NCBI GenBank assembly: GCA_949286835.1
Contig: CASEDP010000008.1
Span: 1 to 64,000, forward strand
DNA: 64,000 bases
DNA from: an uncultured Clostridia bacterium
GTDB taxonomy: Bacteria > Bacillota > Clostridia > Christensenellales > Borkfalkiaceae
Direction: 5' to 3'
A model generated the notes under the pieces. The model saw only the letters and a program-made list of their open reading frames with translations. It was not told the DNA's origin and searched no databases. The stretch's first letter is position 1. Each line of letters starts with the position of its first letter. Shown here one piece after another: positions 35,652-59,574 of this stretch. The position numbers and the translations under genes are program-made.

Positions 35652-35902
35652 AAAAACAGGCACGATAATCTCTTAAAGAGACGCCGTGCCCTGCGTGGTA
35701 CCACTCTTCTTTACGGAATAAATCCGCCTTACGGCTGCCAAACACAGCCCGTCACCTTTACGGCTGACAACCCGTACGCGCTTACTGAAAAACTTTCGGC
35801 GCGTCTGCTCCGCGGCGAGTTCGCCCCGCCCCTTCGGCTGTCTTGCACCTGACGACAGCTCTCTGAACCAGAGGACGCGGTTACTTTTCCGCTTCGACGC
35901 AT
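35652..35902 (-). promoter_or_regulatory. Leu T-box riboswitch leader of leuA
   Basis: The - strand leader carries the T-box core AAGAGTGGTACCACGC (35693-35708). A terminator follows (35652-35690: GGCACG/CGTGCC with U-run) that competes with the antiterminator. The stem I specifier region reads GCGAACTCGCCGCGG with CTC (35817-35819), a leucine codon. Uncharged tRNA-Leu should stabilise the antiterminator and switch leuA on. Its agreement with the downstream gene makes the call firm. Confidence 0.93.
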
Positions 35903-35923
35903 TATAAATATTGAATTTTATAC

Positions 35924-49955: not shown

Positions 49956-50095
49956 AAAATAACTCCTAAAATACAGTTTCGTGAATTTTGTTTGCTAAGA
50001 TGCGCAAACAAAATTGCCCGATTTGAGGGCGCCGCCCTCTTGACATATTATGCTGCGGCACACGATTATTAGAAAATATGTCAATTCACCTGCTC

Positions 50096-50222
50096 AGGTT
50101 GCGGTAGCAACAAATGTAGACGAGCGACGCATTTCATAGGACAGTGGACACCCACTGTCCGTGCGGCGCGGAGAGACCGCGACCTGCCGAGCGTCAGCGT
50201 GAGGCGTCGCGGAGCCGACCAA
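50096..50222 (+). repeat. 127-bp repeat module, copy 1
   Basis: Begins AGGTTGCGGTAGCAAC (a GTTGC/GCAAC hairpin) and contains the stem GGACAGTGG/CCACTGTCC preceded by TTCATA. 126 of 127 bases match copy 2. Confidence 0.9.
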
Positions 50223-50410
50223 GGAAACCCTGCTTGCGCCGTTGAGTTGTTTTCGTAAATTTGTTTTCCGGTGACGAAAACAAATTTGACGATCTTGAGC
50301 GGCTCTGCCGCTCTTGCCGCGACGTTTAAGTGCTCTCAATTATGAGAAGTCGCGGCAATTCACACCGCTGCCCGCCCGACGAAGTCGGTCGCACGGAGTG
50401 TCAGCGTAGT

Positions 50411-50537
50411 AGGTTGCGGTAGCAACAAATGTAGACGGGCGACGCATTTCATAGGACAGTGGACACCCACTGTCCGTGCGGCGCGGAGAGACCGCGACCT
50501 GCCGAGCGTCAGCGTGAGGCGTCGCGGAGCCGACCAA
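50411..50537 (+). repeat. 127-bp repeat module, copy 2
   Basis: Same as copy 1 except one A to G change. The start of this copy overlaps the end of the stem series 50254-50413. Confidence 0.9.
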
Positions 50538-50664
50538 CGACGAACGAGCACACTTCATAGAAAGGTGGTCACCCGCCTTTCGTGTGTGAGTGAGATGAGT
50601 GAGCAGATAGTGTTCCGTGCGAACGGTGCCCGAAATCGCCCTCGTCTCACAAAGCCCAATTTTC

Positions 50665-56144: not shown

Positions 56145-56301
56145 CCTACTATGCTTACGCTCCGTGCGACCGACTTCGTCGGGCGGGCGGCAGGTGAATT
56201 GACATATTTTCTAATAATCGTGTGCCGCAGCACAATATGTCAAGAGGGCAACGCCCTCAACCTCGTCAAATTTGTTTTCGTCACCAGAAAACAAATTTAC
56301 G
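56145..56301 (-). repeat. structured repeat copy between the two PFL genes
   Basis: On the - strand it carries the same stem series as 50254-50413: an AAATTTGTTTTC/GAAAACAAATTT hairpin, GAGGGC/GCCCTC, TTGACATATT/AATATGTCAA and a CCGAC/GTCGG hairpin ending in TAGTAGG. It begins 8 nt after the pflB stop codon. Confidence 0.85.
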
Positions 56302-56309
56302 AAACCCAT

Positions 56310-59428: not shown

Positions 59429-59574
59429 GCGCACCTCCGCATAAAATAAGGGCAAAATTACCGCTGTTTGCGATATCTTTGCCCAGACGAACGACTTTAA
59501 AGACAGTGTGCCGCTCCACGCGGTAATCCGCCAATAATCGTCAGTCACGGCAACACCCAAATCACTACACTGCG

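Follow-up and report, generated by a model that had tools for sequence, protein, structure and literature searches.

REP/REPIN sequences and BIMEs are many-copy intergenic palindromes arranged in mosaic clusters, and they have been proposed to be non-autonomous, with an HUH enzyme (TnpA_REP/RAYT) mobilising the folded ssDNA (sections of PMC8266576 and PMC3116915 on which we draw). In IS608, terminal hairpins are recognised on ssDNA, and T-AT and A-AT base triplets aid the assembly of the complex (PMC5934647). The BOX, RUP and SPRITE repeats of pneumococcus are folded, non-autonomous and intergenic with an unproven mobiliser, and BOX is modular as well (excerpted text of PMC3049150). In addition, the intrastrand triplex motifs TM and BoxC are repeated in bacteria and have been tied to genome instability (PMC4666352).

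Here we compare with these systems a repeated element from a window of 64,000 nucleotides, the whole stretch of DNA that was analysed, which is part of a metagenome-assembled genome of 1.57 Mb. Like REP/REPIN sequences and BIMEs, as far as the sections cited above describe them, the element is intergenic, palindromic, multi-copy and mosaic. However, REPs are palindromes of 20-40 bp (PMC4666352) while this element is ~190 nt long and has a third strand besides its five hairpins, which vary in sequence, and its copy number, in contrast to the REP/RAYT arrangement, does not follow the presence of an HUH gene. It shares hairpins at the ends and base triplets with IS200/IS605 elements such as IS608, its own triples being read from covariation alone, but it has neither an internal or linked tnpA nor a fixed 5' junction tetranucleotide, and the partner of its third strand would be a hairpin arm instead of a cleavage site. 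Since IS608 complexes use T-AT and A-AT triplets, the comparison with REP and IS200 is mechanistically sensible, and by this analogy the element would resemble REP/IS200-type elements in its working, although it lacks the tested features that need a linked HUH gene. As the excerpted text of PMC3049150 describes BOX, RUP and SPRITE, the element is likewise folded, non-autonomous, intergenic, modular and without a proven mobiliser; the terminal inverted repeats of BOX and RUP differ in that they resemble known IS, the words 'compensatory' and 'covariation' are absent from the paper's text, and the excerpt reports no triplex. With TM/BoxC the element shares a repeated single-strand triplex motif, deduced here from covariation. 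With its loops limited to 1-6 nt, the TM/BoxC search would miss the candidate triplex of this element, whose third strand lies past H3. Taken together with the comparisons below, the element is a family-restricted, non-autonomous repeat constrained for its folded shape, most likely as ssDNA, and comparative evidence speaks for a triple helix.

Architecture of the element and its copies in the window

The core of the element (~190 nt) runs in the order H1, H2, H3, a single strand (TTCACACCGCTGAGG), H4, CAAATT, H5 and an AT-rich tail. H1 (TTCAC...GTGA) has 12-15 bp of nearly unconstrained sequence, H2 has 5-7 bp, and H3 has 10 bp with an inner loop that contains AAGGGC.C.CAATTAT, which is conserved unpaired as are TGAGG and CAAATT. 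Some copies are enlarged by modules B/C, an extra loop ahead of H4 or a bigger H2. In the sister genus g109 the full plan is kept with a longer H2, and in the sister genus g3 H1 and H5 are kept and H2/H3 are lacking, so that the hairpins at both ends persist even in these short copies. Three copies were located in the window by cmsearch, together with two copies of a palindromic module and a related one, as follows.

49978-50135, plus strand: copy 1, covariance-model match (cmsearch, 104 bits)
49978-50118, plus strand: core of copy 1, H1 to H4 (cmsearch, sequence)
49984-50015, plus strand: H1 of copy 1, a 12-bp 5'-terminal hairpin with 100% complementary arms, AATTTTGTTTGC/GCAAACAAAATT (49984-49995/50004-50015)
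50025-50039, plus strand: H2 of copy 1, GAGGGC/GCCCTC (50025-50030/50034-50039; sequence, covariation)
50040-50084, plus strand: H3 of copy 1, TTGACATATT/AATATGTCAA (50040-50049/50075-50084; sequence, covariation)
50085-50098, plus strand: third strand of copy 1, TTCACCTGCTCAGG (covariation with H2)
50098-50111, plus strand: H4 of copy 1, GTTGC/GCAAC (sequence, covariation)
50119-50219, plus strand: module B1, a second palindromic repeat inserted ahead of the copy 1 end hairpin (repeat search)
50220-50250, plus strand: 3' end of copy 1, the remaining H5 (GGAAACCCTGCTTGCGCC) and AT-rich tail (aligned with the 3' ends of other copies)
50252-50413, plus strand: core of copy 2, comprising H1, H2, H3, third strand, inserted loop and start of H4 (cmsearch, 119.9 bits)
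50257-50287, plus strand: H1 of copy 2, with 100% complementary arms, AAATTTGTTTTC/GAAAACAAATTT (50257-50268/50276-50287)
50297-50313, plus strand: H2 of copy 2, GAGCGGC/GCCGCTC (50297-50303/50307-50313; sequence, covariation)
50314-50358, plus strand: H3 of copy 2, TTGCCGCGAC/GTCGCGGCAA (50314-50323/50349-50358; sequence, covariation)
50359-50370, plus strand: third strand of copy 2, TTCACACCGCTG (covariation with H2)
50371-50412, plus strand: optional extra module of copy 2 between third strand and H4 (CCCGCCCGACGAAGTCGG...), present in other own-genome copies
50434-50540, plus strand: module B2 (repeat search)
50541-50650, plus strand: module C, a relative of B with inner stem AAAGGTGG/CCGCCTTT (copies in contigs C13 and C4)
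56145-56303, minus strand: element copy 3 (cmsearch, 87.9 bits; blastn)

The region 49980-50620, which the original prediction had treated as one repeat family, thus holds modules B1, B2 and C besides the element. Module B1 separates the 3' end hairpin of copy 1 from its core, and modules B1 and B2 form a direct repeat of 130 nt with 98% identity. H2 of copy 1 is one base pair shorter than that of copy 2, and its third strand is one base shorter in step. When folded as ssDNA, copies 1 and 2 are far more stable than their shuffles (z -3.6 and -6.5).

Pairing is also maintained through sequence change in B-type modules of other genomes. The B/C modules consist of an outer stem, an internal loop such as TTTCATA and an inner stem, often followed by GAGATGAGTGAG; besides the three in the window they occur at L021, L047, L049, L057, L081, L090, L092, L110, L111, L144 and L173, and both stems are altered between genomes yet still paired. 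The window also contains a T-box leader (35674-35906, minus strand) and a ZMP/ZTP riboswitch (59474-59558, minus strand), both at the Rfam gathering score and ordinary.

Stem covariation and a candidate triple helix

A blastn search yielded 37 pieces in the own genome, and a MAFFT alignment that made no use of structure was built from 39 copies of this genome and its genus. In this alignment RNAalifold found 33 pairs, 31 of which have compensatory changes. A covariance model built from it gave 26 matches in the own genome, and when 120 copies were aligned to the model, every one of the 33 stem pairs showed double changes and 96.8% of the 3788 cells were paired; this larger alignment leans on structure, and the MAFFT alignment made without it agrees. 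The covariation score was 0.674, compared with 0.177 for shuffles (0 of 500 reached the observed value) and 0.07, at most 0.084, for slid arms. H1 alone accounts for 14 covarying pairs across the family. The arms quoted in the original prediction are all present in the window and perfectly complementary, and its claim that arms change together under selection for structure holds for the conserved structure itself, although the re-perfecting of palindromes by mutation could contribute to the stems. Neither of the failures it had foreseen occurred, as the signal is overwhelming at 120 copies and the family extends far beyond three.

The strongest covariation outside the stems links H2 with the strand 3' of H3, and both H2 arms are involved: z is 22-26 for model positions 51/61 with 113, 16-17 for 49/63 with 111 and 13 for loop position 56 with 116. 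The register is parallel, and the third strand has C at a G-C pair, T or A at an A-T pair and A at a C-G pair. When H2 lacks one pair the third strand lacks one base (12 copies, 2 exceptions). The relation is destroyed when third strands are permuted only within genomes: 111 of 116 were consistent as observed, compared with a mean of 79 after permutation (0/5000), for a code that was derived from the same data on which it was scored; g109 therefore matters as an independent genus. In g109 the third strand is approximately the mirror image of the H2 pyrimidine arm, for example CTCCCTCTT / CACCCTCTT and GAGGGAGA / CACCCTCT, with T matching T 17 times, C matching C 15 times and a single exception, at position 5 (0/5000 for unique combinations).

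As published, the pyrimidine triplex motif combines mirror symmetry with T.A-T and C.G-C triples that a parallel strand forms (PMC4666352), and by covariation the third strand of the element runs in the direction of the purine strand in a pattern that corresponds to both of these triples. Some of its triples are non-canonical, since A stands opposite A-T at H2 positions 49-50 and opposite C-G at 51. We therefore propose that H2 is the duplex of a candidate triple helix, which is apparently conserved in the element. Folded as a single strand, the element would carry terminal hairpins H1 at its 5' end and H5 at its 3' end with H2, H3 and H4 between them, and the third strand would run alongside the 5' arm of H2, which is purine-rich, in parallel orientation. 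This would give a short triple helix of the pyrimidine type, which a single Watson-Crick pair to the H2 loop would lock. The fold, and not its sequence, may then be bound by a recombinase or transposase that acts on single strands in trans; with the fold as binding target, arms would be selected for pairing while their sequences drift. Antiparallel pairing between the third strand and the segment 3' of H4 was rejected, as the tested pairs did not covary (z about 0). The H1 loop and the inner loop of H3 also covary (model positions 21-24 with 85-87 in alignment A3, z 7-14, confounded by lineage), perhaps through a kissing contact.

Among the H2-H4 cells there are 2325 Watson-Crick pairs, 9 G.T, 8 A.C and 17 others. 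Functional RNAs use G.U as an intermediate, and control RNAs from the same loci, a small set of eight tRNAs, a further tRNA, a T-box and a ZTP riboswitch, contain 10 G.U against 164 Watson-Crick pairs (Fisher p 1e-7 versus the element). Mismatches in the element are nearly absent and symmetric, unlike those of real RNAs, which suggests that the constraint acts on DNA pairing.

Genomic placement, host range and the search for a mobilising enzyme

Of the 61 congeneric genomes, 54 were matched by the covariance model, and the number of matches in a genome ranged from 0 to at least 46; G008, G012, G025, G043, G046, G047 and G056 were without a match. In an order-wide sample of 200 genomes, further matches were found only in g3, a sister genus of the same family, and they were weak. 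The conserved 3' hairpin GCGCAAAAGCGTGGTTTTGCTTGCGC is shared by g1, g3 and g109, three genera of the family. In a sample of ~300 genomes from across the order it was seen in no other family. As far as the sampled genomes show, the element is confined to a single bacterial family. The searched phages, plasmids and viral contigs contained no match, and a phage or plasmid origin was rejected. Pattern matches with a named organism include Candidatus Coproplasma and the remainder are uncultured Clostridia MAGs; the hosts are presumably gut bacteria, and the genus name is assigned with the same reserve.

Intergenic copies fall into all four classes of gene orientation (55, 30, 29 and 21), and 18 of 173 copies overlap a mechanically called ORF. 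The statement that no protein is encoded agrees with these results, as only mechanical ORFs cross the element and it has no Rfam match. One orthologous junction is empty in G009; G005 has a single copy there, G052 a reversed copy and G028 a tandem array, and such arrays in G028 comprise about four copies. Another junction, in an operon named atp from its sequence with no search behind the name, is filled in the own genome and short in G028. The 5' flank is AT-rich and has no fixed tetranucleotide, neither a conserved target site nor a target duplication is readable at empty sites, which are too diverged between species for exact junctions, and inspection of own-genome ends revealed no clear terminal inverted repeat. 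Insertion into the lagging strand is expected to leave a replication-strand bias; the bias observed is weak and contradictory, gene orientation and GC skew giving opposite results. At L026 3999-4044 (G000:C9:35498-35543) a solo H1 stands where G028 has the tandem array, which suggests a deletion down to the end hairpin.

The trans-acting transposase that the original prediction had called for was sought and not found. Of the 61 genomes, 18 have Y1 (HUH) transposase genes, but their presence does not follow the copy number of the element: G002, G014, G016, G030, G038 and G053 have at least 46 matches and no Y1 match, and G012 has Y1 and no element match. No Y1 locus carries both element ends. 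The Y1 transposase was therefore rejected as the mobiliser, because copy number does not track it and the ends are unlinked. An ORF-bearing version of the element was not present among the fetched loci. Tyrosine recombinase/integrase counts are alike in element-rich and element-empty genomes, with IntI not singled out, so these counts do not discriminate; a search for Y2 transposases gave no match, and its controls were equally silent.

Competing explanations for the folded repeat

We give a probability of roughly 0.52 to the reading that the repeat is an interspersed mobile element of the MITE or REP type, non-autonomous, which would work as folded ssDNA and be moved in trans. A more specific version, which we hold only tentatively and consider doubtful, is an undescribed ssDNA transposable element in which a three-dimensional DNA fold with a maintained triple helix is recognised, by a recombinase class so far unconnected with it. 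The original prediction had offered an RNA and an intermediate of ssDNA transposition as alternatives, and the evidence leans toward ssDNA, given that G.T is as rare as A.C, orientation is mixed and orthologous sites are empty. Action as an RNA is rather unlikely in our judgement: functional RNAs, too, can have numerous covarying helices, conserved motifs that stay unpaired and a pyrimidine triple helix, and a Y-motif triplex is possible in RNA (PMC4666352), but G.U is tolerated no better than A.C, Rfam searches at E<=1 and at the gathering score returned no match in the element and only a weak or unrelated one nearby, and mixed gene orientation led us to reject a fixed 5' leader or terminator.

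The near-perfect Watson-Crick stems with rare intermediates, and the great excess of double over single changes except between the nearest copies, would also be expected if replicative strand switching templated by hairpins re-perfected palindromes, so that arms co-change without selection for the fold. Single-arm changes do occur between the nearest copies, however, and the third strand mirrors the 3' arm of H2, a relation that template copying would probably not produce, yet it covaries, length included; we regard this explanation as very improbable. That the repeat is a BIME-like chromosomal element used by the host, which binds nucleoid proteins, gyrase or polymerase or trims transcripts and spreads slowly, would suit its intergenic, mosaic and palindromic character, its tandem clusters and the sites conserved between species (L148/L166 and L165/L169). 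Seven congeneric genomes without any match indicate that it is dispensable at the genus level, and we find this reading quite improbable. The pattern points to a selfish element whose sequence is free to change as long as its hairpins, and apparently its triple helix, stay.

If the mobile, folded-ssDNA reading is correct, the family would be a natural case of a DNA fold rewritten repeatedly by evolution with its hairpins and base triples preserved, and comparative evidence that selection in living cells maintains folded ssDNA, triple helix included, as a functional form. It would also make triplex function in bacteria directly testable, provide a large natural alignment for tertiary structure of DNA (not RNA) and indicate an undiscovered mobilising enzyme in a common gut Clostridia family.

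Two own-genome contigs (G000:C19, L011, and G000:C13, L012) end within module B, and copy numbers from metagenome assemblies are therefore probably too low. A 709-bp stretch with element copies is shared at 99.6% identity between contig ends of two different species (L190, G027:C42, 74-782, and the end of L189, G031:C25), and may reflect recent transfer or binning carry-over.
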